A DNA stretch of 21,933 nt, from IMG/VR virus record IMGVR_UViG_3300030117_007050, positions 1 through 21,933 of that record. One strand, written 5' to 3'. The DNA comes from a virus. The notes under the pieces are model-generated. The model had not been told where the DNA came from, searched no databases, and worked only from the letters and a program-made list of their open reading frames with translations. The position numbers and the translations under genes are program-made. Positions 1-20,246 of this stretch are shown piece by piece; position 1 is the first letter of the stretch; every line of letters starts with the position of its first letter.

Positions 1-22
1 TGAGAAACGAAGAGAAAAACAA

Positions 23-82
23 TGAAAAAGCTACGGTATATACGAGCGGAGGAAGAAAACTGAAAGAGCTTCGATATATACG
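23..82. repeat. Pair of imperfect 22-bp direct repeats
   Basis: Positions 23-44 and 61-82 match at 19 of 22 bases (TGAAA-AGCT-CG-TATATACG pattern), 38 bp apart. The copies would both encode a (K/E)LRYIR-like peptide but lie in different reading frames. This fits either paired protein-binding sites or the decayed remains of a small repeated coding segment. Confidence 0.55.
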
Positions 83-137
83 GGATATTATTACGATACC
101 TATGGCATCGGGATCCCCTGGTAGGTTCACCTTCAAA

Positions 138-200
138 ACCAGCTTAATCAGATTAAATTAAACTGATTTAATCGTTTTAAATTAAATAGATTAAACTGGT
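138..200. repeat. AT-rich inverted-repeat cluster
   Basis: The outer arms 138-149 and 189-200 are inverted copies (ACCAG-TTAATC, 11 of 12 matching). Between them a GATTAAAT/ATTTAATC stem and several more TTAA-rich half sites occur. Directly downstream lies a further small palindrome, GGATAG-N7-CTATCC (202-220). The extreme AT content and nested symmetry suit an operator cluster or a DNA-unwinding element, but nothing identifies the binding protein. Confidence 0.5.
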
Positions 201-467
201 AGGATAGACTCATACTATCCATAATAGACATTATCGTTAGTATGTTTTGGGCTTATGTGGGGTGGGATAGTGCTATAAATGCCCTGAGAGCGCCTGTGTT
301 GCCCTCTGAGCGCCCTGGAGGCGCTGGGTATGTCTATAGTCCTATAATAGGTTTAATTGAACCTGAGCCAGTATGGGTCATTTGATTGCAAGCATAGAAG
401 CATCTCACCCTATCCCTTCCTATCTTTTCCTTTTCTTTTCCTTCGATCCCTCTACTTTGCGATAGAC

Positions 468-503
468 AAAAAAATAGCGCCCAGGCATAAACCCAGGCGC
501 TAT
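468..503 (-). terminator. Intrinsic terminator after the 58-aa gene
   Basis: Read on the minus strand, an ATAGCGCC/GGCGCTAT stem (496-503 with 474-481) is followed by a run of seven T residues. It lies 26 bp past the stop codon of the gene at 529-705. Confidence 0.75.
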
Positions 504-705: not shown

Positions 706-748
706 AAGTCACTACCTCCTAATAAGTGTAAGATTAAAGGGTAAAAAG

Positions 749-2205: not shown

Positions 2206-3414
2206 TTAAACCTCTACTTTGCGTAATAGCTTAGCTGCAGCCTGGTCAATAGCTGTCCTATCGGCCATGTATTTGCTCTGCTGGCTAGCCCTGGTCAAGC
2301 CCTGTACCCAACCCCAGGTTGTGCCTGCTCTGTCTCCATGATCCTGGGGAAATTGCTCCTGCATTATTTCCGCAGCCTGTATAGTCCCTTTAGGTAAACC
2401 AGTTGCCAGCTGCGCAGATTTAATATCCAAGCGCTGCTCTGCAGCTGCTGCTATCTGCTGCTGCTCCTGGCTGCAGCTGGCTTCCTCTGCTGCTGCGATA
2501 GTCCCTGCAAGAAAAGCGCGACCGTTGAGCCTAGTACTATCGGCGCTGCCTCTATGCACTAGGCGAATATTCGCTATACTGGCTCCGCTCCAGAGTATAT
2601 GATTTCCACATACCTGGCTATAAAGAATACATTCTACGTTATAGCTGCTGGCTCCAACCTCAGAGTTTCTGAGGATTAAGGCACGGTACATATTGCCACT
2701 AGGGGTATCAATACTGCGCTCCTGGTTTACCAGCAGAGCGAACATATCCCTATCGCTGCCATATAGACCAGCAGGACCGCATCTATCGCCAATACGTACG
2801 CTCAGGCTGTGTTGCTCACCTGGCAATACGTCTGCTGCTGTTGCCTGCCAGATATCCTCAGCTGGGCAGCCAGGATAAGGGCGTGCAGGTGGTACACGCC
2901 ATCCATCGGCTTCTAACGTGTTTAGTAGGTCTGTGACTACATCGCAATCCCAATACCTGCTGTATTGATCGCTAGTAATAGCCCTGCAGGTGTTGCCCTG
3001 CTCACTCTCAGTTACTAATAAAGACCTTTCGCGCTCAGGATAGCGCGGTAGTCCCTCATTAATGCAGGCTGCAGCCAGGTGAGCAGGCAGCGTACGCAGA
3101 TACCCTGCAGGAGCGCCTATACCCTGGGCCAGCTGGCCTAAGCTGTAATTATTCAGCAGAGCAGCGCCTTGTTTATTGCTGATAGCTAAACCTTGTTCTG
3201 CAATGGGCAGAACCTCCATTTCAGTAATAGGTAAAAGCCCAGTTTCGGCGCTGCGCTGTTTACGCTCCTGTAAAGCAATTTGCATATCGCCTAAACTTCT
3301 AAATCTCTCCTCAGCTGGTCTGCTGCACCACTGAGTAAAAGCGCTGGTAATATTGCTGCGCTCCTGGGCAGGCGCTGCAGCTGGTGCGCCATTGCTTTCT
3401 ATTGTTGCTGCCAT
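2206..3414 (-). CDS. DUF932-type phage/plasmid protein
   Basis: This 402-aa protein matches the pattern of the DUF932 family (phage/plasmid-like proteins, function unknown). It has an Ala/Gln-rich N-terminus, a helical segment with a GxPxxYL-type motif (YSLGQLAQGIGAPAGYLRTLP, about 90-110), RAITSDQYSRYWD (144-156), a central beta-rich part with LLVNQE (227-232), and the characteristic LRNSEVGASSY then CGNHILW stretch (248-275). The C-terminal 100 residues are helical. The ATG at 3414 has a strong SD (GGAGG), and a plausible promoter lies at 3482-3509 with a perfect palindrome at the expected transcription start. It heads a two-gene unit with the 120-aa gene. In phages and plasmids these proteins are common accessory genes; no catalytic motif is obvious. 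Confidence 0.85.
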   Translation of the reverse strand: MAATIESNGAPAAAPAQERSNITSAFTQWCSRPAEERFRSLGDMQIALQERKQRSAETGLLPITEMEVLPIAEQGLAISNKQGAALLNNYSLGQLAQGIGAPAGYLRTLPAHLAAACINEGLPRYPERERSLLVTESEQGNTCRAITSDQYSRYWDCDVVTDLLNTLEADGWRVPPARPYPGCPAEDIWQATAADVLPGEQHSLSVRIGDRCGPAGLYGSDRDMFALLVNQERSIDTPSGNMYRALILRNSEVGASSYNVECILYSQVCGNHILWSGASIANIRLVHRGSADSTRLNGRAFLAGTIAAAEEASCSQEQQQIAAAAEQRLDIKSAQLATGLPKGTIQAAEIMQEQFPQDHGDRAGTTWGWVQGLTRASQQSKYMADRTAIDQAAAKLLRKVEV

Positions 3415-3450
3415 CTAAACAACCTCCAAATAGTAAAGGATTAAAGGGGC

Positions 3451-3473
3451 TGACAATGGGCTGTCCATTGTCA
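3451..3473. promoter_or_regulatory. Operator-like perfect palindrome before the DUF932 gene
   Basis: TGACAATGG (3451-3459) and CCATTGTCA (3465-3473) form a perfect 9-bp inverted repeat with a 5-bp spacer. It lies at the expected transcription start of the minus-strand promoter at 3482-3509 and about 35 bp before the DUF932 start codon. A matching half site (TTGACAAT) recurs at 3551. It could act as a repressor operator or as a hairpin in the leader RNA. Confidence 0.6.
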
Positions 3474-3481
3474 ACACATCT

Positions 3482-3509
3482 AATATATAAATATTGCAAA
3501 ATAGCACAA
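3482..3509 (-). promoter_or_regulatory. Putative promoter of the DUF932 unit
   Basis: On the minus strand, TTGTGC (3509-3504) and TATATT (3487-3482) have a 16-bp spacer in an AT-rich background. It points at the DUF932 gene. Confidence 0.4.
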
Positions 3510-3576
3510 CCTCTAATTTAAAATACTTTTATATTCGGCAAAATCGCAGATTGACAATAGAATTCAGTTTCATTAA

Positions 3577-3596
3577 CTTAATTGAAATCAATTAAG
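3577..3596. promoter_or_regulatory. Perfect 9-bp palindrome, likely operator
   Basis: CTTAATTGA (3577-3585) and TCAATTAAG (3588-3596) are perfect inverted arms with a 2-bp spacer. The AATTGA/TCAATT core is the same symmetry element that recurs inside the 29-bp repeats at 3649-3765, so one protein may bind both. Confidence 0.5.
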
Positions 3597-3648: not shown

Positions 3649-3765
3649 AAAATTGAGTTGATTAGAATCTCAATTTCAAAATTGAATTGATTAGAATCTC
3701 AATTTCAAAATTGAATTGATTAGCGGTGGGAGTTCAAAATTGGAGTTGATTAGAAGGGAACGTTC
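3649..3765. repeat. Iteron-like tandem array, four ~29-bp units
   Basis: Units begin at 3649, 3678, 3707 and 3736, each opening AAAATTG(A/G). The first two are identical except for one base and contain the inverted repeat AATTGA-N8-TCAATT. Units 3 and 4 keep the left half (about 16-17 bp) and the closing TTC but diverge in between. There are no spacers, so this is a tandem array. Its place in a non-coding gap beside the HTH regulator gene fits either a replication-origin iteron cluster or a multi-site operator. Confidence 0.8.
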
Positions 3766-3802
3766 AAAAAAAAGCCCCTGGCAACCAAAGTCGCTCAGGG
3801 GC
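3766..3802 (-). terminator. Intrinsic terminator after the small HTH gene
   Basis: On the minus strand the stem GCCCCTG/CAGGGGC (3796-3802 with 3774-3780) is followed by an eight-T run. It lies about 26 bp after the stop codon of the HTH gene at 3828-4061 and shields the iteron array from its transcript. Confidence 0.75.
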
Positions 3803-3827
3803 ACCCTTTAATCCTTACGCTCCTATA

Positions 3828-4061
3828 CTACTGAGGATCACTTTCCTTGTCAAGCTCAACTTCTATCACATCGGCAAGATCGCAATTGAGGCCCTCCATC
3901 AAGCGCTCCAGCGTCTTCCGATTCCAATTCGTTTTGTTGTTTAATAGACTGCTAATGTTAGTAGGAGCAATGTTGAGTTGCTCCCCTAAGTCTCTTATTG
4001 ATTCGATGCCCCTGGCATCCATAATTTCTAAAATTCGGTATTTTCTAACCTTTAATTTCAT
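3828..4061 (-). CDS. Small HTH (XRE/Cro-like) transcriptional regulator
   Basis: This 77-aa protein consists almost entirely of a Cro/C1-type helix-turn-helix. SIRDLGEQLNIAPTNISSLLNNKT (21-44) gives the two HTH helices, followed by the family's WNRKTLERLMEGLNC helix and a short acidic tail (EVELDKESD). No dimerisation or protease domain is present, so it resembles Cro or a compact repressor rather than a full CI protein. The ATG at 4061 has an AGAGG SD, and a good promoter lies at 4094-4122. It is divergent from the larger HTH gene at 4373-5131, forming the usual head-to-head genetic switch. Likely targets are the palindromes and 29-bp repeats downstream and the shared promoter region; that assignment is inference. 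Confidence 0.88.
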   Translation of the reverse strand: MKLKVRKYRILEIMDARGIESIRDLGEQLNIAPTNISSLLNNKTNWNRKTLERLMEGLNCDLADVIEVELDKESDPQ

Positions 4062-4093
4062 TTTTAAACCTCTGCTTTGTTATTGTTTGCTTT

Positions 4094-4122
4094 AGAATAA
4101 AGTAGCATATACCGCAGGTAAA
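4094..4122 (-). promoter_or_regulatory. Promoter of the small HTH gene
   Basis: On the minus strand, TTTACC (4122-4117) and TATTCT (4099-4094) are separated by 17 bp. It lies 33 bp upstream of the start codon at 4061 and faces away from the plus-strand promoter at 4212-4241. Confidence 0.5.
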
Positions 4123-4211
4123 CGCAATCGCAGCTTGTAAGACAATGCTAATAGCGTCATTTTTTTCTCATATTTTGAGCGTGCAAATTTGTTAGAAAAC
4201 TTTTTGCTGCG

Positions 4212-4241
4212 TTGCGTATAAATCAATGATTGTATTATACT
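4212..4241 (+). promoter_or_regulatory. Rightward promoter of the early/switch region
   Basis: TTGCGT (4212-4217) and TATACT (4236-4241) are separated by 18 bp. Transcription would start near 4248, which places an in-frame ATG at 4226 outside the transcript and supports a later start for the following gene. The non-coding gap 4062-4372 holds this promoter and the divergent one at 4094-4122, and nothing else I can identify. Confidence 0.5.
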
Positions 4242-4372
4242 TGCTTACTTTTTTTCCTTTTGTAGAAATGCCCCCCTGCGCTAATTATTACGACAAAAAT
4301 CCCAAATTACGAGAAAGGTTTTTTAAAATAAAGTCTTGCCAAACGAAAATTGCAAGATTATTATGGACTCAC

Positions 4373-5131
4373 ATGAGCGAGCGATTAGAAAAAGTGGGAT
4401 CAAAGATCAGGGCAAAATTAAAAGCCCAGGGCTACACGCTGGAGGCATTTGCCCATGAGATTGGCATAACAACCTCAACGATGGGACGCATCGTAAAGGG
4501 CGTGGGTGGCACAATCAATGTTGCGACATACGAAAAGATTGCTGATGCCCTTGGTGTTGAATGGGAGGAATTACTCAACACGCAGGTTCCCCTGCACCTG
4601 AACTTAACTGGTTTTGCCAAAGTCGATGCACTAATCAGTGAGTTTTTTGAAAATTTGTATAAGGGGGATGCGGGATACGAGAGGCTAAAGGAAATTACGA
4701 CCACTAATTACAAACTGCGGTATTTGTACAACAATCTTATTTCAAACCGATCAAACATGCCAGGGATGACGCCCTCTCAAAGGCCTGTGTTGGGCATGGA
4801 GATTGAGCTTACTAACCCAGGCATGTCACTGGAAGACGAAATGCGTCTTAATGCCAAGGAAAAAGGAAATCACGAGATGTGCAAAGCCACGCCCGTGCAG
4901 GCCTGGCCGTTGGGACGCAGGGACGTATTAGTCCATGTTCAGTCAATATTTAAAGAGTTAGAGAAAGAGGAAAAACAGGTAAATGTGCCCATGATTTCGG
5001 CATACCGCTACGTATCCACGATTGAGGTGTTTACGTTAGATACCCCATGGGCAAATATGTCTGACAAGCCCATAAAGATTGAGGGACGCATCATCGGCAT
5101 AATCAATATACGGACTAACAACCGAAATTAG
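4373..5131 (+). CDS. HTH (XRE-family) regulator, probable phage repressor
   Basis: From the ATG at 4373 the protein is 252 aa. Residues 5-70 form an XRE helix-turn-helix (KAQGYTLEAFAHEIGITTST, then INVATYEKIADALGVEWEEL). The rest, about 180 residues, is not a LexA/S24 peptidase and I cannot assign it. It ends in a beta-rich stretch (IKIEGRIIGIINIRT) that may mediate dimerisation. The frame is open further upstream to ATGs at 4226 and 4268, but the predicted promoter at 4212-4241 excludes 4226, and similarity to HTH proteins begins at 4373. No strong SD precedes any candidate start. The gene is divergent from the small HTH gene and leads into the early operon, consistent with a switch regulator. 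The DNA is more AT-rich than in the operon that follows. Confidence 0.82.
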   Translation: MSERLEKVGSKIRAKLKAQGYTLEAFAHEIGITTSTMGRIVKGVGGTINVATYEKIADALGVEWEELLNTQVPLHLNLTGFAKVDALISEFFENLYKGDAGYERLKEITTTNYKLRYLYNNLISNRSNMPGMTPSQRPVLGMEIELTNPGMSLEDEMRLNAKEKGNHEMCKATPVQAWPLGRRDVLVHVQSIFKELEKEEKQVNVPMISAYRYVSTIEVFTLDTPWANMSDKPIKIEGRIIGIINIRTNNRN

Positions 5132-5135
5132 TTAG

Positions 5136-5173
5136 AAAAAAGGGAGTCAGCGTGCGCCAACACGCTAACTCCC
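5136..5173 (-). terminator. Hairpin with minus-strand terminator polarity
   Basis: GGGAGTCAGCGTG (5142-5154) pairs with CACGCTAACTCCC (5161-5173) except for one mismatch. The A6 run on its left makes it a canonical terminator only for minus-strand transcripts; no T run follows on the plus strand. It sits directly after the HTH gene's stop and before the early operon. It may block antisense RNA from entering the repressor gene. Confidence 0.6.
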
Positions 5174-5216
5174 CAACTACACACAGACCCCAACTCGGTA
5201 GAGAAAGGATATTGTG

Positions 5217-5339
5217 ATGCCCCAATATAGTAGTAGTCCTCCCAAACATGCAATATGCACATATGTGCAGGTAGCGCTCATTTTAGGTGCCGTAGTCTAC
5301 CTCGGCAGCAGGATTATCCCTGCGCTGTGGAACAGATAG
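5217..5339 (+). CDS. 40-aa single-pass membrane peptide
   Basis: This short gene starts with ATG at 5217, preceded by an AAAGGA SD 6 nt away, and stops at TAG 5337-5339, only 3 bp before the annealing-protein gene. The peptide has a polar N-terminus (MPQYSSSPPKHA), then one hydrophobic helix (about residues 16-29, VQVALILGAVVYLG), and a short tail ending IIPALWNR. It would insert as a single-pass inner-membrane peptide. It is the first gene of the early operon, after the HTH gene. Small early membrane peptides in phages are often involved in superinfection exclusion or host modulation, but nothing here proves a role. The good SD, tight spacing and clear amphipathic layout support it being real. 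Confidence 0.6.
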   Translation: MPQYSSSPPKHAICTYVQVALILGAVVYLGSRIIPALWNR

Positions 5340-5342
5340 GCT

Positions 5343-6050
5343 ATGGCAACAAGCGAAAGAATTACGCCTCTACTGCTAGCAGCTTTAGCAGAACCCTTCC
5401 CCAGCGATGAAATCCAGTGGCGTGTAGGGTCTACGACCAAGGACAAAAAACGAGGCCTGGCGCTTGCGTATATCGACGCAAGGACCGTGATGGACAGGCT
5501 AGATGCGGTCTGCGGTGGCTTTTGGGAGGACTACTACTCAGAGGTTGCAGGACGCTTGGTCTGCGGCATCTCGGTTTACGGCCTGACGCGCTCAGATGGC
5601 GCAGGCGATACTGATTTTGAAGCGGAGAAAGGTGGACTAAGCGATGCCTTTAAAAGAGCAGGCGTTAAGTGGGGCATCGGGCGCTACCTGTACCGATTGC
5701 CCAGCGAGTGGGTAGCGTTGGATGGCAGGCAGAAAATCACTACCCCTCCTTCCCTGCCTCATTGGGCGCTGCCCAGCGGTGAGATCAGTGACCAGGACAT
5801 CGATTTCCCTGCCGTAGAGAAAGACGATAAGACCCTGCAGCAGGCAGACGTAGATGAAGCCAAACGCAAAATCATAGGCAATGTGCTGGACTTAGAAGCT
5901 GGTCTAATTAACGGGGATAAGATGACCGCAGAGCAACGCACTACGGTTCGGCGCAAATATGCTGATGCTATCAAGCTGGAGGCTGCTACGGTCGATAACC
6001 TACAGGTTTACTACGACAATTTAATTAAATACGGAGAAACTGTGCAATGA
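5343..6050 (+). CDS. Rad52/Rad22-family single-strand annealing protein
   Basis: This 235-aa protein carries the hallmarks of the phage Rad52_Rad22 family. These are a start with PLLLAALAEPFP and IQWRVGST (9-31), LAYIDARTVMDRLDAVCG (41-58), a strand-rich core ending GISVYGL, and the signature EAEKGGLSDAFKRAGVKWGIGRYLYRLP (93-120). It binds single-stranded DNA and anneals complementary strands in phage recombination and repair, probably working with the SSB encoded downstream. The C-terminal 100 residues are variable and helical. The start at 5343 has only a weak SD, and the stop overlaps the next gene's ATG (ATGA), so the operon is translationally coupled. No partner exonuclease is recognisable nearby. 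Confidence 0.92.
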   Translation: MATSERITPLLLAALAEPFPSDEIQWRVGSTTKDKKRGLALAYIDARTVMDRLDAVCGGFWEDYYSEVAGRLVCGISVYGLTRSDGAGDTDFEAEKGGLSDAFKRAGVKWGIGRYLYRLPSEWVALDGRQKITTPPSLPHWALPSGEISDQDIDFPAVEKDDKTLQQADVDEAKRKIIGNVLDLEAGLINGDKMTAEQRTTVRRKYADAIKLEAATVDNLQVYYDNLIKYGETVQ

Positions 6051-6295
6051 ATCAACACGGATATTGGAGCAACTCAATACCCCCTGAGATTGATCAGTTG
6101 CTCAACGAACCAAACCCTTTGTGGGATTGGCAGGTGCGTGAGATCGATGAGGAGGAGTGGATCGTAGCACGCCTCATCGACAACAACCAGTGTGAACGCA
6201 TCGTCGCAGGCAAAGTGTCTGTAGCGGTAGAGGACCCCCCTGCTGGCAGAGGTATACACGCTCTGATACCCACAGGACCTGACAATGATCAATGA
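6047..6295 (+). CDS. 82-aa hypothetical protein
   Basis: This small soluble protein begins MNQHGYWSNSIPPEIDQLLN and contains the acidic stretch WQVREIDEEEWIVARLID. It is preceded by GGAG 10 nt upstream of an ATG that overlaps the preceding stop codon. I do not recognise a family. It sits between the annealing protein and SSB genes, so a link to DNA metabolism is plausible only by position. Its last 11 bases overlap the following gene. Confidence 0.75.
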   Translation: MNQHGYWSNSIPPEIDQLLNEPNPLWDWQVREIDEEEWIVARLIDNNQCERIVAGKVSVAVEDPPAGRGIHALIPTGPDNDQ

Positions 6296-6512
6296 AGAGT
6301 CTGCGCATTCTCGCCAAGATGCTCAGGCATTTATTTCTGATGCAGACAGTTATTTGCTCCTAACCTTGAAAGGTGATGCCCCTCGTCTGGCAGGATACGC
6401 ATCAGACACAGACCAGTTGCTGATGCTTTTGGCCTACCTGGACACAAACCTCCCCTTAAAAAAATCTTTGAGGATGTGTCTCACCAACACTTTTAAAATA
6501 GGGAAAAATTAG
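6285..6512 (+). CDS. 75-aa hypothetical protein
   Basis: This unrecognised small protein (MINEESAHSRQDAQAFISDA at the start) has a leucine-rich middle (TDQLLMLLAYLDTNLPLKKSL) and a basic C-terminus. The ATG at 6285 overlaps the previous gene by 11 bp and has only a weak AGGA upstream. Its TAG overlaps the GTG of the SSB gene by one base. The operon position and coupled spacing support it as coding. Confidence 0.68.
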   Translation: MINEESAHSRQDAQAFISDADSYLLLTLKGDAPRLAGYASDTDQLLMLLAYLDTNLPLKKSLRMCLTNTFKIGKN

Positions 6513-6886
6513 TGATATCAATAAATTTCGTTGCCCTGCTGGGCACAATTCGCGGCGAGGTGCGCCATAACACCACGCAGAACTCGCAGGTTGCCAATTT
6601 CACTCTGGTTACAAAAGCAAAGGCGCACCCCAATGCCAAAGTTGACTTCTTCCAGACCTTCCACAATATAACGGCTTGGGGCCGCTTGGCTGAGGATATA
6701 AAAGATTGCGCAGAGGGTGATACTGTGCAGGTCGAGGGAGCGCTTGAAACAGAATCTTGGGAGCAGGATGGGACGAAGCGCTATAAGACTATCATCAAAG
6801 CGAGGAACCTCAACGTGATTGAAGAGGATCGTCCTCGCCGCAATCCTGTCGAACAACCTGCGGACGCTCCAGATGCCCCTTTCTAA
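6512..6886 (+). CDS. ssb: Single-stranded DNA-binding protein
   Basis: This 124-aa protein starts with GTG at 6512, with AGGGA upstream. The OB-fold runs from residue 1 to about 108, with FVALLGTIRGEVR, ANFTLVTKAKA, FHNITAWGRLAEDI and the closing strands GDTVQVEGALE and YKTIIKARNLNVIE, as in bacterial SSB. A short proline-rich linker leads to an acidic tip ending DAPDAPF, the phage form of the D-D-x-P-F tail that recruits partner enzymes. It protects single-stranded DNA during replication and annealing recombination. The gene overlaps the following resolvase-like gene by 14 bp. Confidence 0.94.
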   Translation: MISINFVALLGTIRGEVRHNTTQNSQVANFTLVTKAKAHPNAKVDFFQTFHNITAWGRLAEDIKDCAEGDTVQVEGALETESWEQDGTKRYKTIIKARNLNVIEEDRPRRNPVEQPADAPDAPF

Positions 6887-7214
6887 GCCCAAAGCAAAGG
6901 CCCCCTCTCCTGGGCGCAGGTCACGCAACAAGGGTGCCCGTGTGGAGCGTGAGATCGTCGCGCTTCACCAGGCACTCGGCGTAGAGGCAGAGCGTGTGCC
7001 TCTCTCAGGGGCTGCAGGTGGCAGTTATACAGGCGATGTCATCGTGGACAAACGCTACCGTGCAGAGGTTAAGGCCAGGAAAGATGGAGGTGGATTCGCT
7101 TTGATTGAGCGCTGGCTTGAGGGCAATGATATGCTGATCGTCAAATCAGATCGCAAAGAACCTCTAGTGGTGCTGCCCTGGTCTACCTATGGGCAGCTGA
7201 TCACAGGAGAGTAA
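6873..7214 (+). CDS. Hjc-like PD-(D/E)XK nuclease (putative Holliday junction resolvase)
   Basis: From the ATG at 6873 the protein is 113 aa. It has a basic N-terminus, then SRNKGARVEREIVALH (17-32) with the helix-1 glutamate, GDV with D55, and EVK (E65, K67). This is the E...D...ExK pattern of archaeal Hjc-like and phage PD-(D/E)XK nucleases, followed by a helix and strand (DMLIVKSDRKEPLVVLP). The likely activity is cutting branched DNA such as Holliday junctions; a simple endonuclease role is also possible. The frame is open further upstream inside the SSB gene, but homology starts after 6873. It overlaps ssb by 14 bp, fitting the recombination operon. Confidence 0.85.
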   Translation: MPLSKPKAKAPSPGRRSRNKGARVEREIVALHQALGVEAERVPLSGAAGGSYTGDVIVDKRYRAEVKARKDGGGFALIERWLEGNDMLIVKSDRKEPLVVLPWSTYGQLITGE

Positions 7215-7215
7215 A

Positions 7216-7419
7216 ATGAAATTGCAAGTTGATGACATAAAATTTGAAAATTTGATGATGCGCATTGCGCTGAACAATGTGAAGGAAAATATTTTTGAAT
7301 ATATGACTGAAAAATGGGAGAAAGAAGGGAATGAAGTCATTGATGAAACCTTGGCAGACGCATTGCTCTGGATTGAACGTGGGCTGGCTCAGGGCGTACA
7401 TGATGCCCCACAAAATTAG
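7216..7419 (+). CDS. 67-aa acidic hypothetical protein
   Basis: This small helical, acidic protein (MKLQVDDIKFENLMMRIALN at the start, then YMTEKWEKEGNEVIDETLAD) starts 1 nt after the previous stop, with a strong GGAGAG SD. I do not recognise a family. Its AT-richer codons contrast with those of the neighbouring genes. Its position between the resolvase-like gene and the helicase suggests a helper in replication or host interaction, but that is not testable from sequence alone. Confidence 0.78.
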   Translation: MKLQVDDIKFENLMMRIALNNVKENIFEYMTEKWEKEGNEVIDETLADALLWIERGLAQGVHDAPQN

Positions 7420-7472
7420 TTGTGCAGTGATACCTAATTTTCACTTAAAAAACACACAGGCACTGTACAACT

Positions 7473-8768
7473 ATGGCGCACGCTCCTGAAGATTTCGACG
7501 CTGAGCAAGCTGTACTCAGCAGCATCATGCAACGCCTGGGTGCCCTACCCGAAGTGATTGAGATGGGCATCACGGTGGACAGTTTTTGGACTCCAACAAA
7601 CCAAAAACTGTGGCTGGCAATTAATGATGCGGCTACTGCAGCCCCGAAAGGGAGCGATGCACTTGACCCTACGATCCTGTTGCGTTTCACCCAGGGCAGG
7701 GCACCTGAATTGAGTCTGTTCGATGTCACGAAGCTGTTTACTCTGGTGGGCACCTCGCACAACGTGCGGTGGCACGCGCAGACCCTGCTCGACTTGGAGC
7801 AACGCAGGGACCTGGCAGCGATGGGGCGCGACCTGGAGCAGCGTGCGTCCAACATGGCAGACGATCCAGAAGACCTCATCTATGATGTAGAGGAACGTCT
7901 GACTGCCCACGCCAAGGTGGACGCAGGGATGCAGACGCTCAGCGAAGCGCTCGGCATGACGCAGCACTGGACCAGGCAAAACAGCACGCTGGGACTGCTG
8001 GGACTAAGCTCAGGCTTTACCCACCTGGATGACATCACCAATGGACTGCAGCCCTCGCAGCTGATCGTCTTGGCAGCACGCCCAAGTAAAGGCAAGTCTG
8101 CGCTGGCTTGGCAGATCGCTATGCACGCAGCACAGCGAGGTCCTGTAGCGTTCTTCAGTCTTGAGATGGATGCACGCAGCTTGGTGTTACGTGCCCTCTG
8201 CCAGCTGACATCCATACCGATAGCAGACCTGGCACGCAATCGTATGCCAGAGCATAAGCAGCAGGCATTCGATGAGGCTGTGGCGCAGTTGCGTAGCGCT
8301 CAGTTGCACATCGATGATCGGGGCAGTCTGACCCTTCATGCCCTCAAAGCCAAGTGCAAGAAGCTGCATCGCCAGGAACCCCTCTCTCTGATCGTCGTAG
8401 ACTACCTGCAGCTGATGCAGGCAGGCAAAGCCAGCACCAGAGAGCAAGAAGTCAGTCAGATCAGCAGAGGGCTGAAAGCCCTGGCAATGGACCTGGGCGT
8501 GCCCGTGCTGGCCTGCGCACAGCTAAACAGAGCGATAGAGATGCGCACAGGAGAAGCCTCGCGCCCTGCCCTATCGGATCTTAGAGACTCAGGCCAGATA
8601 GAGCAGGATGCAGATGGGGTGTGGATGCTGTGGTGGGGATGGGAGCATTGCTCAGATTTAGCAGAGGGAGACTGTGAGTTGTTGGTGCGGAAAAATCGAA
8701 ATGGACCTTTGGGCACGCAGGGCGTGGATTGGAGTAAGGAGCAAGTGGCTTTTGTTGAACGCTTCTAA
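7473..8768 (+). CDS. dnaB: DnaB-like replicative helicase
   Basis: This 431-aa protein has the two-part DnaB layout. The N-terminal helical domain (about 1-110) opens with the typical DFDAEQAVLSSIM. A linker follows, then the RecA-like ATPase with GFTHLDDITNGLQPSQLIVLAA, Walker A ARPSKGKS (202-209), SLEM with the catalytic Glu231, Walker B VVDYLQLM (308-315), AQLNR with Gln350, and the motif RKNRNGPLG (406-414). It unwinds the replication fork 5' to 3' and recruits primase. The Walker A has Ser instead of the usual Thr and a shortened overall length compared with cellular DnaB (about 450-470). No helicase loader or primase gene is seen here, so host DnaG is presumably used. The SD before the ATG is weak. 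Confidence 0.95.
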   Translation: MAHAPEDFDAEQAVLSSIMQRLGALPEVIEMGITVDSFWTPTNQKLWLAINDAATAAPKGSDALDPTILLRFTQGRAPELSLFDVTKLFTLVGTSHNVRWHAQTLLDLEQRRDLAAMGRDLEQRASNMADDPEDLIYDVEERLTAHAKVDAGMQTLSEALGMTQHWTRQNSTLGLLGLSSGFTHLDDITNGLQPSQLIVLAARPSKGKSALAWQIAMHAAQRGPVAFFSLEMDARSLVLRALCQLTSIPIADLARNRMPEHKQQAFDEAVAQLRSAQLHIDDRGSLTLHALKAKCKKLHRQEPLSLIVVDYLQLMQAGKASTREQEVSQISRGLKALAMDLGVPVLACAQLNRAIEMRTGEASRPALSDLRDSGQIEQDADGVWMLWWGWEHCSDLAEGDCELLVRKNRNGPLGTQGVDWSKEQVAFVERF

Positions 8769-9414
8769 TTATATATATCGCCTGCCCCTGCAACCTTCGA
8801 GCAAGGATGAGCAGTTGCGGTTGGTAGAGCGCTGGCAGCAGGATGGAGATGTGGACGCACGCAATCAGCTAATACGAGAATCGTTGGGATACGTACTCAA
8901 AGAGCTATCCAAACGATACAGTCCTAACTACGATAAGAGTGACGCCCTGCACGATGCCGCGCTAGCACTCTGTGATGCTGCAGACAAATTTGACGCTAGT
9001 ACGGGCCACTCATTTTTGACTTACGCCAAATTCTACATTATGAGGGCGCACAACGTAACTGAGAGTGTGTCACATCCTGGATTTAAGGTCCCTTATGATG
9101 CAATCAAAGATCAGCGACGTAAAGGGTCCGATGAACGACCACACACATTCGTAAATCTTGAGATGGCAGAATTAAACCCTGCCGATAATCTTAGCACCCT
9201 CCCCGATATAAGCGAAGGAAACGATATACGCCATTTTTTGTCTACGATAAAATGTCGCAGGGCACGGGCGATGGTGCAATTTCAATTCGGCATCATTGGC
9301 AATCGCACGTGGCGCAAATCTGAACTTGCCAGAGCAATGCGTTTGAGTAGACAACGTGTAGACCAAATTGAGAAAAGGACTTTACATGAAATACGGCGCA
9401 ACGTGTCGCGGTAG
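8752..9414 (+). CDS. Sigma-70-family-like sigma factor
   Basis: Residues 25-105 match sigma region 2 (ARNQLIRESLGYVLKEL, DALHDAALALCDAADKFDAS, HSFLTYAKFYIMRAH). The C-terminal 35 residues form a region-4-like HTH (WRKSELARAMRLSRQRVDQI). It would direct RNA polymerase to phage promoters, most likely those of the opposite-strand late operon, which has no other visible activator. I chose TTG 8752, preceded by AAGGAG 10 nt away and overlapping the end of dnaB; ATG at 8701 or 8674 is also possible but lacks an SD. The middle segment between regions 2 and 4 is variable. Confidence 0.85.
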   Translation: MLNASNYIYRLPLQPSSKDEQLRLVERWQQDGDVDARNQLIRESLGYVLKELSKRYSPNYDKSDALHDAALALCDAADKFDASTGHSFLTYAKFYIMRAHNVTESVSHPGFKVPYDAIKDQRRKGSDERPHTFVNLEMAELNPADNLSTLPDISEGNDIRHFLSTIKCRRARAMVQFQFGIIGNRTWRKSELARAMRLSRQRVDQIEKRTLHEIRRNVSR

Positions 9415-9454
9415 TTGCTCAGGGAGTAGCACACTATCAATCGTTGCGCCCAGG

Positions 9455-9484
9455 GGTGGGCAGTATTGGGGAGTGCTGCCCACC
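9455..9484. promoter_or_regulatory. Perfect 9-bp stem hairpin before the second nuclease-like gene
   Basis: GGTGGGCAG (9455-9463) and CTGCCCACC (9476-9484) are perfectly inverted around a 12-nt loop containing GGGGAG. No T run follows on either strand, so it is not a simple terminator. It lies 14 nt upstream of the ATG at 9498, whose own SD is not visible. It may act as an RNA switch, processing site or protein-binding leader. Confidence 0.6.
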
Positions 9485-9497
9485 CTACACTACTACT

Positions 9498-10106
9498 ATG
9501 ATTGAAATTGAACTCAGCAGCGACCAGCTAAAGGGCGCACTATACCACGCCGAACTCAACTGCGGCCACGGTATTGGCGCGATGCGCAGTCGTTATCACG
9601 ACGATCAAACGCGCAAGGCGCGTATGCGCACGGACCAGGCCGTTGGGCAGGTGGCAACGTGTGCCGTGGCGAAATACTTACACGGACACACCTCAACGTA
9701 TTTTCAGACCAGATTTCACCGAAACCAGCATCCCAACAGCAGCGATAATGGATTCGATATCGGTTGCGCAAACATAGACGTAAAGGGGAGCTACATGCGG
9801 TATGGCACAGACCCCTCGCGCTACAGTCTGCTGATTCACCCAGCAGAAGTCCACGACGAGTGGGTCTACATACAAGTCCTGTTGGGTCATCCATCGCCAG
9901 ATCCCTCGGATTGGATTGAGGTGCCCCCAACAATTATTTTGACAGGCTGGGCAACCACGGCCATGCTACCCACTACGCCTATAGCGGAAGGCAATCTGGC
10001 AGGTGCCCTCCGCATCCCCATCCCCGAATTGCACCCACTCCCACCCATCCAACATAAGTGGTTTGATCATGAGTGGAAGACAGGAAATCACAGACCGATT
10101 ATGTGA
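9498..10106 (+). CDS. PD-(D/E)XK-like nuclease, putative
   Basis: From ATG 9498 the protein is 202 aa. A helical N-terminal part (DQAVGQVATCAVAKYLHG, 46-63) precedes SDNGFDIGCANIDVKGSYM (82-100). There D87 and D94-x-K96 make a good PD-(D/E)XK active-site signature; an upstream glutamate is not obvious. This is the fold of many phage and restriction endonucleases. The C-terminal half (LIHPAEVHDEWVYIQVLLGH and the proline-rich end) is unassigned. It is thus most likely a DNA-cutting enzyme, with a role in recombination or host-DNA degradation equally possible. There is no clear SD; a strong hairpin lies just upstream. The end overlaps the next gene by 38 bp. Confidence 0.75.
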   Translation: MIEIELSSDQLKGALYHAELNCGHGIGAMRSRYHDDQTRKARMRTDQAVGQVATCAVAKYLHGHTSTYFQTRFHRNQHPNSSDNGFDIGCANIDVKGSYMRYGTDPSRYSLLIHPAEVHDEWVYIQVLLGHPSPDPSDWIEVPPTIILTGWATTAMLPTTPIAEGNLAGALRIPIPELHPLPPIQHKWFDHEWKTGNHRPIM

Positions 10107-10344
10107 TTCACAGCACACCAATCGAATCATATTTTTTGAGCCTGCAGAATTAGATGAGGCGCTAATTGGCATCGCGTGCCGCATCGGACTATCGGTGCCA
10201 GCGTATGACTATGACGCCCTGATAGAGATACACCAACAAATCAACAACTGGTCCTATGAGGATGCAGAAGAATGGGTGCATCACAACACAATGGGCAGCT
10301 ACGTGGGTCCCGAAACGCCCGTGGTCGTATGGAGGCCGCGCTAG
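10069..10344 (+). CDS. 91-aa conserved-phage-type hypothetical protein
   Basis: Starting at ATG 10069 (inside the end of the previous gene), the 91-aa protein has an N-terminal strand (RIIFFEPAELDEALIG) and the helical motif YDYDALIEIHQQINNWSYED, followed by AEEWVHHNTMGSYVGPETPVVV. I recall a small phage protein family of the form YEEAxEWxxYNxxGxxxGExTPxxV, whose function is unknown. A direct assignment is not possible. It is packed between the nuclease-like and SWIM genes with overlaps at both ends. The SD is weak. Confidence 0.75.
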   Translation: MSGRQEITDRLCDSQHTNRIIFFEPAELDEALIGIACRIGLSVPAYDYDALIEIHQQINNWSYEDAEEWVHHNTMGSYVGPETPVVVWRPR

Positions 10345-10547
10345 CGGCACTGGACGAGGAACAGGTATTTAATCGTGTGGGCACCTTGGGCGATACTTAT
10401 ACGATCAGGAGGCACCCCACAGTTGAGCCTGGAGAGGATCGCTGGACCTGCACCTGCAAAGGGTATCGATACCGCAGCAGGCAGCGAGTGGGCTATCAGT
10501 GCAGACACATAAGGGAGATCAGAGAATGCCTGATACAACTGATGTAA
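10329..10547 (+). CDS. SWIM zinc-finger-like small protein
   Basis: This 72-aa protein starts at ATG 10329 and overlaps its upstream neighbour by 16 bp. After a short helical start (MEAALAALDEEQVFNRVG) and strands (TYTIRRHP), it contains CTCKGYRYRSRQRVGYQCRH, the CxCx(n)CxH pattern of a SWIM zinc finger. SWIM domains bind DNA or protein partners in transposases, helicases and Rad51-associated proteins. Here it may be an adaptor for the recombination or integration machinery; that is inferred from neighbours only. No SD is visible, so coupling with the upstream gene is likely. Confidence 0.78.
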   Translation: MEAALAALDEEQVFNRVGTLGDTYTIRRHPTVEPGEDRWTCTCKGYRYRSRQRVGYQCRHIREIRECLIQLM

Positions 10548-10741
10548 CGATTGGCCTGGATTTCGGCCTATGCCAAGCCAATGCGTACAATATGTCGAGA
10601 TACATGAAAGAGCCTGTCACGGTCTACGCCATCGGGCGAGGCAAAGCGGAGCGCTATTTTTTTCGCTTAGATAACGACACCCGTGAGGTGGATGATATGT
10701 GGCGCATCATTTGGCACAGCGATTGGGAAAAACCCGCATGA
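10526..10741 (+). CDS. 71-aa hypothetical protein
   Basis: This unrecognised small protein (MPDTTDVTIGLDFGLCQANA at the start, YNMSRYMKEPVTVYAIGRGKAERYFFRLD in the middle) has tryptophans near the C-terminus. It starts at ATG 10526 with GGGAG about 9 nt upstream and overlaps the SWIM gene by 22 bp. Its TGA overlaps the ATG of the excisionase-like gene. It is probably a real operon member; its function is unknown. Confidence 0.7.
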   Translation: MPDTTDVTIGLDFGLCQANAYNMSRYMKEPVTVYAIGRGKAERYFFRLDNDTREVDDMWRIIWHSDWEKPA

Positions 10742-10911
10742 GTTTAATGAAATACAAAGAAGTCGCAAAAAAATTATCAATATCAGAAACTCAAGTTTAT
10801 GCGTTAAAAGCGACAGGAAAGCTGCCATTTATCAAAATAGGTCGATCTACTCGCTTTGATGAGCAAGACATTCAAAATTTTATACAGGAGAGAAAACGTA
10901 GGATTCAGTGA
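10738..10911 (+). CDS. Excisionase-like MerR/HTH_17 DNA-binding protein
   Basis: This 57-aa protein is a complete winged-helix of the excisionase-family (HTH_17) type, with YKEVAKKLSISETQVYALKA (6-25) then TGKLPFIKIGRSTRFDEQDI (26-45) and a basic tail. Such proteins bind attachment-site DNA and bias integrase towards excision, or act as small regulators. The gene ends 4 bp before the first 23-bp arm-type repeat and lies directly beside the att core and integrase, which strongly suggests the Xis role. The ATG overlaps the preceding stop; an in-frame ATG at 10747 is an alternative. The gene is distinctly more A-rich than its neighbours, suggesting separate ancestry. Confidence 0.85.
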   Translation: MSLMKYKEVAKKLSISETQVYALKATGKLPFIKIGRSTRFDEQDIQNFIQERKRRIQ

Positions 10912-10915
10912 TATC

Positions 10916-10938
10916 GCGCTGTGTCAGTATTGTGTCAA
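10916..10938. repeat. attP arm-type repeat, copy 1
   Basis: This perfect 23-bp repeat is identical to 11168-11190. Each copy contains two TGTGTCA motifs whose starts are 11 bp apart (TGTGTCA-N4-TGTGTCA), about one helical turn, as expected for paired binding of integrase N-terminal domains. Confidence 0.75.
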
Positions 10939-10953
10939 TCGGCCCCAAAACAT

Positions 10954-10993
10954 AAAAACAACCACCTACGAATTAACGTAAGTGGTTGTTTTT
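10954..10993. terminator. Bidirectional intrinsic terminator
   Basis: AAAAACAACCAC (10954-10965) and GTGGTTGTTTTT (10982-10993) form a 12-bp stem with T runs on both strands. It ends the early operon on the plus strand and lies 2 nt after the CCA of the tRNA-like sequence on the minus strand. It could be the host tRNA terminator captured with the att core. Confidence 0.8.
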
Positions 10994-10995
10994 AA

Positions 10996-11067
10996 TGGTG
11001 AGCCCACTGGGAGTCGAACCCAGGACCTACGGATTAAAAGTCCGTTTTTGCTAAACTTTGTTGGGCT
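10996..11067 (-). other. tRNA-Lys(UUU)-like att core with degenerate 5' half
   Basis: On the minus strand, 11044-10996 is a perfect tRNA 3' half. It has the anticodon arm CGGACTTTTAATCCG (anticodon TTT), variable loop, T arm CTGGGTTCGACTCCCAG, acceptor strand TGGGCTC, discriminator A and encoded CCA. The 5' half (11067-11045) is not a good tRNA: the D stem is lost and only AGCCCA remains to pair with TGGGCT, with a T opposite C at the first pair. This fits the phage copy of a tRNA 3' end used as integration core. A decayed phage tRNA is the alternative. Confidence 0.8.
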
Positions 11068-11074
11068 ATATAAA

Positions 11075-11094
11075 ACAACAGCTTACGCTGTTGT
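11075..11094 (-). terminator. Hairpin on the integrase side of the att core
   Basis: ACAACAGC (11075-11082) and GCTGTTGT (11087-11094) form a perfect 8-bp stem with a 4-nt loop. On the minus strand it is followed by TTTTAT, a short terminator-like run, so it may stop antisense transcripts before the tRNA-like core. Confidence 0.5.
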
Positions 11095-11167
11095 GATTGC
11101 CTTACAGCAACTTAGCCCCTACCTTTGACCTACGCCGAACTACACAGAGCTACATGCTATTGCATGG

Positions 11168-11190
11168 GCGCTGTGTCAGTATTGTGTCAA
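11168..11190. repeat. attP arm-type repeat, copy 2
   Basis: Second copy of the 23-bp repeat at 10916-10938. It lies immediately before the integrase SD, so integrase binding here could also repress its own expression. Confidence 0.75.
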
Positions 11191-11201
11191 AGGAGAACAA
11201 C

Positions 11202-12290
11202 TTGGCAGCAAAAAAATACCGCGAAGGGGCTGTAAGCTATTTTAAAAAGGGTACTTATTGGCACGCCTATTGGACCGATCAAAACACGGGATTGCGTGGA
11301 CAACGTAGCTTGCGATGCACAACGCAACGCATGGCTAAAGAGGAAGCAAGAAAAATAAGCGATGCCTTAGATGGAAACATAATACAAAAACTCGATGCTG
11401 TACGGGACAATAAGAAGGTGACGTTTGGCGAAACGGTTGAGCGCTACCTAGATGAGTGCGACCTCGCGGAGAAAAGCCTGAAGGAAGACCGCACGCGCCT
11501 GGATATGGTGCGCTTGGATTGGGAAGACCTGCCCATTAGCAGCATCGACGCAGGCCAGATCGACTCCTGGCTGGCAAAGAAGAGGCGCAGCAGGGGCTGG
11601 AGCCGAAGCACTCGTAATCGCTACCTGAGCGCCATTAAACAGGTCTTCAAGAAAGCACACTCGCTAAACTATACGATAGAGAATCAAGCAGCGCCTCTCA
11701 AAGCGCTTAAAGAAGAGGAAAACATCCCTGAGCCTTTGACAGATGCGGTGATGGATGCCTTAATGCAGGTGCTGCCTGAGTATGCCAAATACTATGTTGC
11801 CATCCTGGTAGATACAGGGCTACGCAGAGGCGAACTGGCGCAGATACGTTGGCGCGATGTGGATACGGCCAACAGGCAGCTGATCGTGCGCAAGAGCAAA
11901 GCGAAGACTTTCAGGGTCATCCCTATGACCGATCGCCTCGCTGCCCTCTTCGACTCCCTGCGCTCGGGACGCAGCTGGGCGCAGACGCAAAGTGGGCACA
12001 GCAGTCATACCCTCGTATGGCCTGATGACAGTAATCCTGAAGCATTGGTAATTGGGCCTATAGATTTAAAGAAGTCTTTAATCTCTGCAAGCAAGCAGTT
12101 AGGAATTGGGCACATTCACCCACATCAGTTCAGGCACACCTTCGCCACACGCCTTATGCAGCGAGGGGTGTCGATGGAGCATATCATGGCGTTGGGAGGT
12201 TGGAAGAGTGCTACGATGGCGAAGCGCTACGCCAGAGTCAATCCAGTAGAATTACACGAACAGATTAAGCGGTTAGAAACCGAAAAATAA
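11202..12290 (+). CDS. int: Tyrosine recombinase, phage integrase
   Basis: I take TTG 11202 as the start, because AAGGAG lies 6 nt upstream; an earlier in-frame TTG at 11097 would run through the arm repeat and has no SD. The 362-aa protein has an N-terminal arm-binding region (AVSYFKKGTYWHAYWTDQNT), a SAM-like core-binding domain (about 75-165) and a catalytic domain with TGLRRGEL (Arg208), a beta-hairpin lysine near KSKAKTFRVIP, HPHQFRHTFA (His308, Arg311), GGWKS (Trp334) and Tyr378-35, i.e. Tyr343, in MAKRYARV. All catalytic residues are present. It should recombine attP with a host tRNA-Lys gene. The late operon converges on it with a 6-bp gap and no clear terminator. Confidence 0.96.
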   Translation: MAAKKYREGAVSYFKKGTYWHAYWTDQNTGLRGQRSLRCTTQRMAKEEARKISDALDGNIIQKLDAVRDNKKVTFGETVERYLDECDLAEKSLKEDRTRLDMVRLDWEDLPISSIDAGQIDSWLAKKRRSRGWSRSTRNRYLSAIKQVFKKAHSLNYTIENQAAPLKALKEEENIPEPLTDAVMDALMQVLPEYAKYYVAILVDTGLRRGELAQIRWRDVDTANRQLIVRKSKAKTFRVIPMTDRLAALFDSLRSGRSWAQTQSGHSSHTLVWPDDSNPEALVIGPIDLKKSLISASKQLGIGHIHPHQFRHTFATRLMQRGVSMEHIMALGGWKSATMAKRYARVNPVELHEQIKRLETEK

Positions 12291-12296
12291 AAATTG

Positions 12297-12473
12297 CTAT
12301 TTCGCTGCATCAACAAAAGCCTGCCCTAAAACGTAGGCTACCGCGACTGCGGCCATCGGCCAGGTAAGCTCAACTACGCCTGTGCCAGCTGCTGCGGCTA
12401 CCGCTGCGGTAACGCCCAGCTTACGTGATGCTAATTTGCCTGCCACATTGCTAACAATGTTAGTTAGATTCAT
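12297..12473 (-). CDS. 58-aa hydrophobic protein, holin-like
   Basis: This short gene starts at ATG 12473 with AGGGGG 6 nt upstream and stops at TAG 12297. The protein (MNLTNIVSNVAGKLASRKLG at the start) has two hydrophobic stretches, about 20-33 (VTAAVAAAAGTGVV) and 38-54 (WPMAAVAVAYVLGQAFV), joined by a short polar turn, and a short charged end. Size, two membrane segments and position at the end of the late operon fit a small holin or other lysis-linked membrane protein. No sequence family is recognised. It overlaps the upstream 60-aa gene by 14 bp. Confidence 0.75.
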   Translation of the reverse strand: MNLTNIVSNVAGKLASRKLGVTAAVAAAAGTGVVELTWPMAAVAVAYVLGQAFVDAAK

Positions 12474-12642
12474 CTTCAGCCCCCTTATCTTGATCCAGTT
12501 CCTCCAGCACCATCAACGCCCCTTGCTGACGCTGGGCCAGGGCCGTTAATTCCTGCACAGTGCCCTGTGCCTGCTGTAATCGTTCCAACGTTGCGCGTTG
12601 ATTTTCTCTTAATTCTAAAATTTTTTCAGCGACATTTTTCAT
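12460..12642 (-). CDS. 60-aa coiled-coil protein
   Basis: The whole protein is a predicted coiled coil (heptad-like KNVAEKILELRENQRATLER, then QAQGTVQELTALAQRQQGAL) ending in a strongly acidic tail (EELDQDKGAEDESN). It has no membrane segment or signal peptide. The ATG overlaps the preceding stop (ATGA), with AGGTGG as SD. It is one of four small late genes after the tail fibre. It may be an assembly scaffold or a partner of the membrane proteins next to it. Confidence 0.75.
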   Translation of the reverse strand: MKNVAEKILELRENQRATLERLQQAQGTVQELTALAQRQQGALMVLEELDQDKGAEDESN

Positions 12643-13049
12643 AACATTCCACCTAAATCGTCTAGCGGGAGTTTGTCTAAAGGGCGTTCCAACAACAAGT
12701 CCTTTAATTTTGTGTTGCTAACTTTTAGCAAAGTTCCACCCACAATAATTTTTTTCCCCTCATCGTCTATTTCGATGTCATAGAGATAGAGGGTCGAGCT
12801 AAACCACCCTGCCTGCGTAATGCGTGCTGGCCTGCGATGCCCATTAATCTGCGCCCAGACAACCTGCGATTCATCGTAATCGCTACCCAGATATACACTG
12901 ATGCCACTTAGTAGATTGACTACTGTCTCGCGGATGGAGAGTAATACTAATGCAGCTAAAAACCACCAGATGTATTGCTCTACAAGCAGGGCTACGCCCG
13001 AAGTTTCGCCAAACGCTTGCAGGGCCTGCTCGGTGTTTTCATCAGTCAT
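12639..13049 (-). CDS. Membrane protein with MscS-like beta domain
   Basis: From ATG 13049 this is 136 aa. An acidic N-terminus is followed by one transmembrane helix (about 22-42, YIWWFLAALVLLSI), an amphipathic helix (ETVVNLLSGISVYLGS), and a beta-rich domain (VVWAQINGHRRPARITQAGW, then TLYLYDIEIDDEGKKIIVGG and GTLLKVSNTKL). This order copies the pore helix and small beta domain of MscS mechanosensitive channels, in miniature. The similarity is by eye and moderate. It may be a pore-forming lysis or osmotic-response protein. An in-frame TTG at 13076 is an alternative start. The gene overlaps its upstream neighbour by 8 bp and is thus coupled. Confidence 0.8.
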   Translation of the reverse strand: MTDENTEQALQAFGETSGVALLVEQYIWWFLAALVLLSIRETVVNLLSGISVYLGSDYDESQVVWAQINGHRRPARITQAGWFSSTLYLYDIEIDDEGKKIIVGGTLLKVSNTKLKDLLLERPLDKLPLDDLGGML

Positions 13050-13461
13050 TGTAAAATGAGTTTGCCGCAGCAGCAAACAAACTAGTTAATAGCCAGGCTG
13101 AGCCAGCAAAAACAAAATCTGAATCAACTATATATTCGGGTATGGCGTGCCTATCATCGTAGTATCGCAGAGTCTGAAACAGCAACGTATTAATCCCCAA
13201 AGCGCAGCCGCTCCAAGATGCGCACGACACCAATTTTTCTTGTTGCGCTTGATGGCGCGTAATCGTTTCAATTTTTGCACGAGCCTCTTTTGCCTCGGCT
13301 TTTGCGCCCCGAACTTGGGCGCTTCTGGACTTTAAAACGCCCTCCGCTGCAGCGTGTTGTTGGCGAGAATCGTCGTATAAACTCCACAATTTTTTGTAAC
13401 ATTCACGTAGCTCGGCAAACGATCCGATTTCTTTAGGATCACGAGGTGGTTTGCCCAACAT
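13042..13461 (-). CDS. 139-aa coiled-coil protein with two membrane segments
   Basis: The N-terminal half is charged and coiled-coil-like (about 15-75, ECYKKLWSLYDDSRQQHAAA, then KEARAKIETITRHQAQQEKL). Two hydrophobic stretches follow, CASWSGCALGINTLLFQTL (79-97) and VFAGSAWLLTSLFAAAANSF (117-136). It is a membrane-anchored protein with a cytoplasmic coiled coil, of unknown family. Position after the tail-fibre gene and beside other membrane proteins suggests a lysis or virion-release role. Its ATG overlaps the upstream stop (TAATG). Confidence 0.78.
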   Translation of the reverse strand: MLGKPPRDPKEIGSFAELRECYKKLWSLYDDSRQQHAAAEGVLKSRSAQVRGAKAEAKEARAKIETITRHQAQQEKLVSCASWSGCALGINTLLFQTLRYYDDRHAIPEYIVDSDFVFAGSAWLLTSLFAAAANSFYND

Positions 13462-13703
13462 TAGTTATTTTGGGATGATGTCCACGCTGCTTTAACCGCA
13501 TCGGTCCATACAGCACTGGCAATGCCCTGTATTTCAGCAGACTCACCGCTAACATCGGCATCTGGCGTCAGCACGCGACGATGGAATGAACGCGACAACT
13601 CAGTGCCATCTTCTTCAATTACAGTAGCGGTGCGAACTTGAATGTGTTTGTAGGTGCCAACAATTTCTATTTTATCATCTACAATAGTTTTATTAAGTGC
13701 CAT
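13461..13703 (-). CDS. 80-aa small late protein
   Basis: This unrecognised 80-aa protein starts MALNKTIVDDKIEIVGTYKH and has a beta-rich first half (KIEIVGTYKHIQVRTATVIE) and a helical end (AEIQGIASAVWTDAVKAAWT). A strong SD (GGGAG) precedes the ATG. It follows the tail fibre directly (14 bp gap), a common place in marine-type phages for small fibre-associated or chaperone proteins; the role is inferred from position. Confidence 0.82.
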   Translation of the reverse strand: MALNKTIVDDKIEIVGTYKHIQVRTATVIEEDGTELSRSFHRRVLTPDADVSGESAEIQGIASAVWTDAVKAAWTSSQNN

Positions 13704-13717
13704 TGTCTGCTCCCAAT

Positions 13718-17856: not shown

Positions 17857-17858
17857 TA

Positions 17859-19904: not shown

Positions 19905-19905
19905 T

Positions 19906-20244: not shown

Positions 20245-20246
20245 GA

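Follow-up and report, generated by a model that had tools for sequence, protein, structure and literature searches.

The window analysed here, a 21.9-kb virus record from IMG/VR, contains a tandem array of direct DNA repeats that is best explained as the iterons of a phage replication origin with a neighbouring AT-rich stretch, and the product of the predicted small RNA gene abutting the array probably represses the gene that opens the adjacent operon. We assign this reading, which was derived from sequence comparison, a probability of roughly 45%. The genes of the window diverge from a region at ~4062–4372. Rightward genes encode a 252-aa HTH protein, a Rad52/Erf-like annealing protein, SSB, a PDDEXK/Holliday-type nuclease, DnaB helicase, a sigma factor and an integrase. 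Leftward genes encode a 77-aa HTH protein (3828–4061, minus strand; HTH_26, phrog_3642), whose gene adjoins the array in all groups of relatives, a DUF932 protein of 402 aa (2206–3414, minus strand), a 120-aa protein and a 230-aa phrog_2554 protein.

A sequence-only reading of this DNA had described four tandem 29-bp units in the gap between a regulator terminator and the DUF932 gene. A repeat search and Tandem Repeats Finder independently recovered four tandem units, the latter with a score of 143 over the first 2.6 copies and of 121 over 4.1 copies, and the setting was confirmed as well, the order being HTH gene, terminator (3774–3802, minus strand), array and DUF932 gene. Counted as 29-nt units at 3649–3677, 3678–3706, 3707–3735 and 3737–3765 (spacing 29, 29 and 30), the copies are 100, 97, 69 and 72% identical to the first. 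A 20-mer core with at most three mismatches was observed twice, both times inside the array, as compared with 0.01 occurrences expected in the window, and a leave-one-out position matrix scored the four units at 26–38 bits versus at most 9 for the rest of the window and at most 8 for shuffled sequences. What did not hold is the unit length: comparison with relatives revealed a natural unit of 28 bp on the minus strand. Including its first box, the array occupies 3653–3768 and consists of unit 1 (TTTGAACGTTCCCTTCTAATCAACTCCA, 3741–3768), unit 2 (TTTGAACTCCCACCGCTAATCAATTCAA, 3711–3738), unit 3 (TTTGAAATTGAGATTCTAATCAATTCAA, 3682–3709) and unit 4 (TTTGAAATTGAGATTCTAATCAACTCAA, 3653–3680), all on the minus strand.

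The comparison set comprised 14 related contigs in four sequence-divergent groups, which were found via DUF932, the HTH protein and DNA patterns. The closest public relatives are metagenomic virus contigs, environmental in origin and incomplete. Identity of the HTH protein to that of the window is 54–70% within the window's own group (L003–L009, L026, L027, L030), 43–45% in the L042 group (L042, L043, L045, L080, L108) and 50% in L044, which forms a group of its own; in L031, likewise a separate group, the protein was missed by BLAST, yet it belongs to phrog_3642 like that of the window. Since L005, L007 and L009 nearly duplicate one another, as do some other contigs, the number of independent observations is closer to four than to fourteen. 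The divergent operon with its DnaB, SSB, Rad52-like and PDDEXK proteins is kept in the relatives, largely including L031. A phage collection yielded no DNA match, and a genome collection no relative by DUF932 alignment; the two entries inspected among the matches of a two-unit pattern in the latter (L046 and L066) were not members. A three-unit pattern retrieved 38 stretches from viral contigs, mostly coding sequence or simple repeats, with L080 and L108 as new true members.

Each unit represents a DNA site of 28 bp with an asymmetric, bipartite structure, TTTGRAATY-N7-YTAATCAACTCMA, and a fixed internal spacing. In an alignment of 58 unit sequences from 13 loci, anchored at ATCAACTC, both boxes contain near-invariant positions while the 7-nt middle is variable and no constraint is seen outside; the T-run of unit 1 is common to the terminator, so that this column of the alignment is slightly inflated. 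Phages of all groups carry 3–8 copies, arranged head-to-tail and all in one orientation relative to transcription. The distances from unit to unit take 11 values (28, 29, 30, 33–35, 39–40, 56, 58 and 136 bp) and lack a helical phase, which makes each unit an independent site, best read as an asymmetric site on double-stranded DNA. There is one array per phage, and the leave-one-out matrix finds sites nowhere else in the contigs scanned, the longest of which are ~19–22 kb. Conservation in relatives had been named as a test of the array; it turned out to be strong, with head-to-tail units in all four groups, and the proposal thus withstood this comparison. A chance or functionless tandem duplication is hardly credible. 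Arrays do expand by duplication, as documented by L045, where a two-unit 68-bp block is duplicated (4408–4544; 8 units in total), and such block pairs are compatible with mere duplication; however, the two fixed boxes are kept around a free middle across HTH proteins that are 43–56% identical, and this pattern of conservation refutes the idea.

In every group the array begins at the T-run of the terminator, the one exception being the degenerate unit 1 of L044; in the window, the TTT of unit 1 is the terminator T-run itself. The array thus adjoins the terminator at an unchanging distance of zero, its distance to DUF932 varies from ~200 to 750 bp across relatives, and the array is present at the terminator with or without DUF932 downstream. 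In L031 it is located between the HTH terminator and a convergent phrog_2554 gene and, therefore, cannot serve there as operator for a downstream promoter. We thus discarded the array as DUF932 operator, because the fixed distance is to the terminator and the array occurs where DUF932 does not follow; the variable distance and the convergent gene in L031 imply that regulation of DUF932 is not its general role. Upstream of DUF932 by ~85–115 nt, a conserved extended −10-like sequence is found at ~3498–3503 (minus strand; TTGCTATAATATSGC in relatives), which is devoid of a clear −35 and is possibly an activated late promoter.

The sequence-only reading had proposed either a replication origin or a cooperative operator for the nearby HTH protein. 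The origin emerges from our comparisons as the best-fitting, though not proven, reading, whereas the operator is weakened by several findings: no site is present at the regulator's own divergent promoter, no matrix match above 9 bits was detected outside the array in the 21.9 kb, the spacing of the units has no helical phase, the site lacks palindromic symmetry, and the sites persist in L031 although its HTH protein, also of phrog_3642, is too divergent for BLAST. Binding of the units by the 77-aa HTH regulator, though conceivable, is unsupported. Given that the HTH gene always lies beside the array, a regulatory array is the main rival of the origin, less probable than the latter, and the form in which we consider it is a roadblock: a phage regulator, such as the HTH protein, would bind the sites head to tail behind the terminator, stop read-through, insulate the operon beyond and sharpen the end of the small RNA. 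The start of the array at the T-run, its constant place behind the HTH gene and the common orientation of its units would all be accounted for in this way. Stoperators of mycobacteriophage L5 are short asymmetric sites scattered over the genome in one orientation relative to transcription, and the units share asymmetry and orientation with them; unlike stoperators, they are bipartite, measure 28 bp and are gathered in a single compact array, outside which no site occurs, the divergent HTH/repressor promoter included. Moreover, L031 retains the site next to a very divergent HTH protein, and a roadblock in this phage would protect only the 3' end of a convergent gene.

We consider it very improbable that the repeats control DUF932 at the RNA level, as part of a read-through leader that folds or is bound by a protein. 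Although the array region lies in the transcribed direction and each unit junction of the window can form CTCAATTT-TG-AAATTGAG, this hairpin is missing in the L042 group where the DNA boxes are retained, which points to a function at the level of DNA; furthermore, L031 has no following gene in that direction, and no Rfam match rose above noise. Direct repeats are also found in partition, packaging and recombination sites, and we regard another cis-acting DNA site of this kind (centromere-like in the case of partition) as improbable: a partition system is not expected in a phage with an integrase and a tRNA-like attP, and the terminase genes are ~5 kb away from the array in L004. The tRNA-like sequence in question (10999–11068, minus strand) is located beside the integrase gene, has a Lys-like anticodon region (CTTTTAA) and scores 33.9 bits with the Rfam tRNA model but was not called by ARAGORN. 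It is likely to be attP, and as the better candidate it led us to dismiss the array in that role. A second long non-coding region precedes the lysis/terminase genes (window 1–480; L004 6870–8000; L003 3900–4930). It is repeat-rich and AT-rich, with purine-rich tandem repeats, AT-rich palindromes and, in L003 and L004, 38–39-nt direct repeats, and it is possible that it represents a packaging site or another origin.

The origin reading fits best because the array consists of asymmetric direct repeats, is single, has AT-rich DNA nearby, adjoins the divergent replication/recombination operon and is kept in L031, where it could act on no downstream promoter. Several direct, asymmetric and sequence-constrained sites in one place characterize an iteron origin, and the array has them. 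From these features we infer origin function, a binding protein and DNA opening. One protein, encoded by the phage or the host, would bind each unit via the boxes TTTGRAATY and YTAATCAACTCMA at their fixed spacing; once several copies are occupied, the neighbouring AT-rich DNA would open, and the DnaB helicase, SSB and Rad52-like annealing protein of the phage would enter there. AT-rich DNA follows the array in the L042 group (TATATATA and T-tracts) and in L031 (GTTTACATAATA repeats). In the window, the least stable 60 bp beside the array (3477–3536, with a possible extended −10, TGCTATTTT) rank 27 among 21,872 windows of the contig. Low-stability DNA is present within 450 bp of the array and on the same side at 11 of 11 loci tested (rank 0–225 of 4,700–21,900 windows), which is weak evidence for an origin because intergenic regions are usually AT-rich.

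Among the proteins scanned, none belongs to a known initiator or helicase-loader family, and several conserved small proteins are uncharacterised. DUF932 was considered as a Rep-like initiator and rejected, since its AlphaFold model (mean pLDDT 71.6) gave no significant Foldseek match; weak OB-fold matches (RPA) obtained with VIA-align for residues ~54–148 (Z near 5) are within the range of common arrangements. The array is not a cluster of DnaA boxes, as it does not conform to the consensus TTWTNCACA, of which the window has no occurrence (1.7 expected by chance). Nor is it an IHF site (WATCAANNNNTTR), because 54 of 57 sequences have an A at the position where the consensus demands the first T of TTR. 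GC skew changes sign at the array region but is fully confounded with gene direction, and it was abandoned as a test for an origin.

Just before the array, every group has two promoter-like hexamers spaced by 17 nt; a short stretch and a terminator hairpin come next, and from this order an RNA of 54–75 nt is predicted. In the window, the predicted σ70-type promoter TTGACA-17-TAGTAT (3825–3853, minus strand) is embedded in the 3'-terminal part of the HTH gene, and the small RNA, if it starts as the promoter indicates, would comprise ~54 nt (3765–3818, minus strand); the predicted gene ends exactly where the array starts. Position and 17-nt spacing of the promoter are the same within the window's group, and related hexamers occur in L042, L044 and L031. 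Those of L044 (TTGACG-17-TAATCT) and L045 (TTGCCC-17-TAACTT) were chosen by eye, the automatic choice not being the best there. The terminator hairpin, GCCCCTG...CAGGGGC followed by T8 (3774–3802, minus strand), changes on both sides at three pairs and has a UUCG loop in most groups. No known Rfam RNA family matched the small RNA/array region above the gathering score, and the sole match was a tRNA elsewhere. It is from this conserved arrangement and the pairing described below that we infer the existence of the small RNA and its effect on a target.

In three groups, whose seeds are unrelated to one another, the predicted small RNA has a 5' end complementary to the DUF932 ribosome-binding region. 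In the window, the 5' pairing segment CGTAAGGATTAAAGGGT (3803–3819, minus strand) corresponds to the DUF932 leader segment CCCCTTTAATCCTTTACT (3432–3449, minus strand; 13/13 complementary), 18–35 nt before the start codon, and the pairing is GUAAGGAUUAAAGGG with CCCUUUAAUCCUUUAC. It is UCGCUAAAAGU with ACUUUUAGCGA in L042 and L108, and AAGGUUUAGG with CCUAAACCUU in L044. In L031, the segment CCCUUUAUUAUU finds its match, AAUAAUAAAGGG, on the opposite strand, where the phrog_2554 gene begins. Cognate duplexes of the four groups have energies of −20.5, −19.2, −19.8 and −15.1 kcal/mol, non-cognate ones of −3.8 to −13.3, and the cognate assignment of seeds to targets is the best of 24. Seed and target thus co-vary across the four groups, and complementarity to the ribosome-binding site is kept by compensating change. 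The pairing in L031 is weaker as judged by shuffling (p 0.02–0.06), and L003 shows a weaker match of DUF932 to the small RNA. On this basis, the small RNA probably acts as a translational repressor of the gene that opens the adjacent operon, which is DUF932 in most of these phages. Pairing in trans or, alternatively, in cis inside a read-through transcript would in either case lower translation of DUF932; the opposite-strand target in L031 favours the former. A possible second target, ACCCTTTAATCTTACA before AGGAGG in the leader of a 58-aa ORF (727–742, minus strand), was noted, duplex energy alone not being specific genome-wide.

Directly before the target site, the DUF932 leader contains an inverted repeat, TGACAATGG...CCATTGTCA (3451–3473, minus strand), whose two arms co-vary among relatives and may thus form an RNA hairpin. 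Another inverted repeat in this intergenic region, element B at 3577–3596, had been regarded as a perfect palindrome sharing an AATTGA/TCAATT symmetry with the array. Its two 9-bp arms are perfect, but AA separates them (CTTAATTGA-AA-TCAATTAAG). The common symmetry is confined to this phage, as relatives read TTAATNGCGATTTATTAAG while their array sequence is unchanged, and because the palindrome changes in this way we dropped the link between the two elements. In L027 and L030, element B is present as 2–3 tandem copies of TTAATNGCGATTTATTAAG. It occurs as TTAAT-N9-TTAAG/A in both non-coding regions (window 144–200 and 3577–3596; L027 695–760; L030 4042–4085) and is a possible late operator or activator site.

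Origins of iteron plasmids consist of asymmetric direct sites of ~20–30 bp next to an AT-rich stretch, and the gene that follows is frequently controlled by an RNA. The array resembles them in its asymmetric direct sites and AT-rich surroundings but differs in that no Rep gene was recognised beside it and that unit spacing is not uniform. In phage λ, the terminated 77-nt OOP RNA adjoins an origin in which four iterons of 18 bp are accompanied by 38 bp of AT-rich DNA, and acts as antisense regulator of a neighbouring early gene (PMC3349717). A short terminated RNA beside iterons and AT-rich DNA is common to both systems, the RNA described here being predicted from promoter and terminator only. 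By contrast, the λ iterons are located inside the initiator gene O, whereas the units of the window lie between genes, and a gene resembling O was not detected; likewise, OOP is transcribed opposite its target, while the present small RNA is on the DUF932 strand. There is no sequence relation; the layouts work alike without being homologous. We tentatively propose a conserved cassette of promoter, 54–75-nt small RNA, terminator and iteron array, in which the seed varies by lineage yet would still pair with the ribosome-binding site of the first operon gene (DUF932, or phrog_2554 in trans in L031) and thereby couple the origin region to the operon, analogous to but independent of λ oop-ori. P22 sar and P1/P7 c4 are short phage RNAs that prevent translation of a phage mRNA by pairing with its start or nearby (PMC12197685); their target is ant, they have no iteron array, and they are unrelated in sequence to the small RNA of this study. 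As far as titles and abstracts go, no description of the cassette was found; the papers that contain DUF932 mention it in neither, and other searches returned only general material.

If the array is an origin, TTTGRAATY-N7-YTAATCAACTCMA repeats behind a hairpin would mark the replication start in an uncultured phage family without a known initiator, and the search for the latter would narrow to a few conserved uncharacterised proteins. The small RNA, for its part, would represent a phage RNA–target pair that is recognisable from co-variation across lineages. To our knowledge, DUF932 is a widespread family without known function, and the small RNA would make its role testable.
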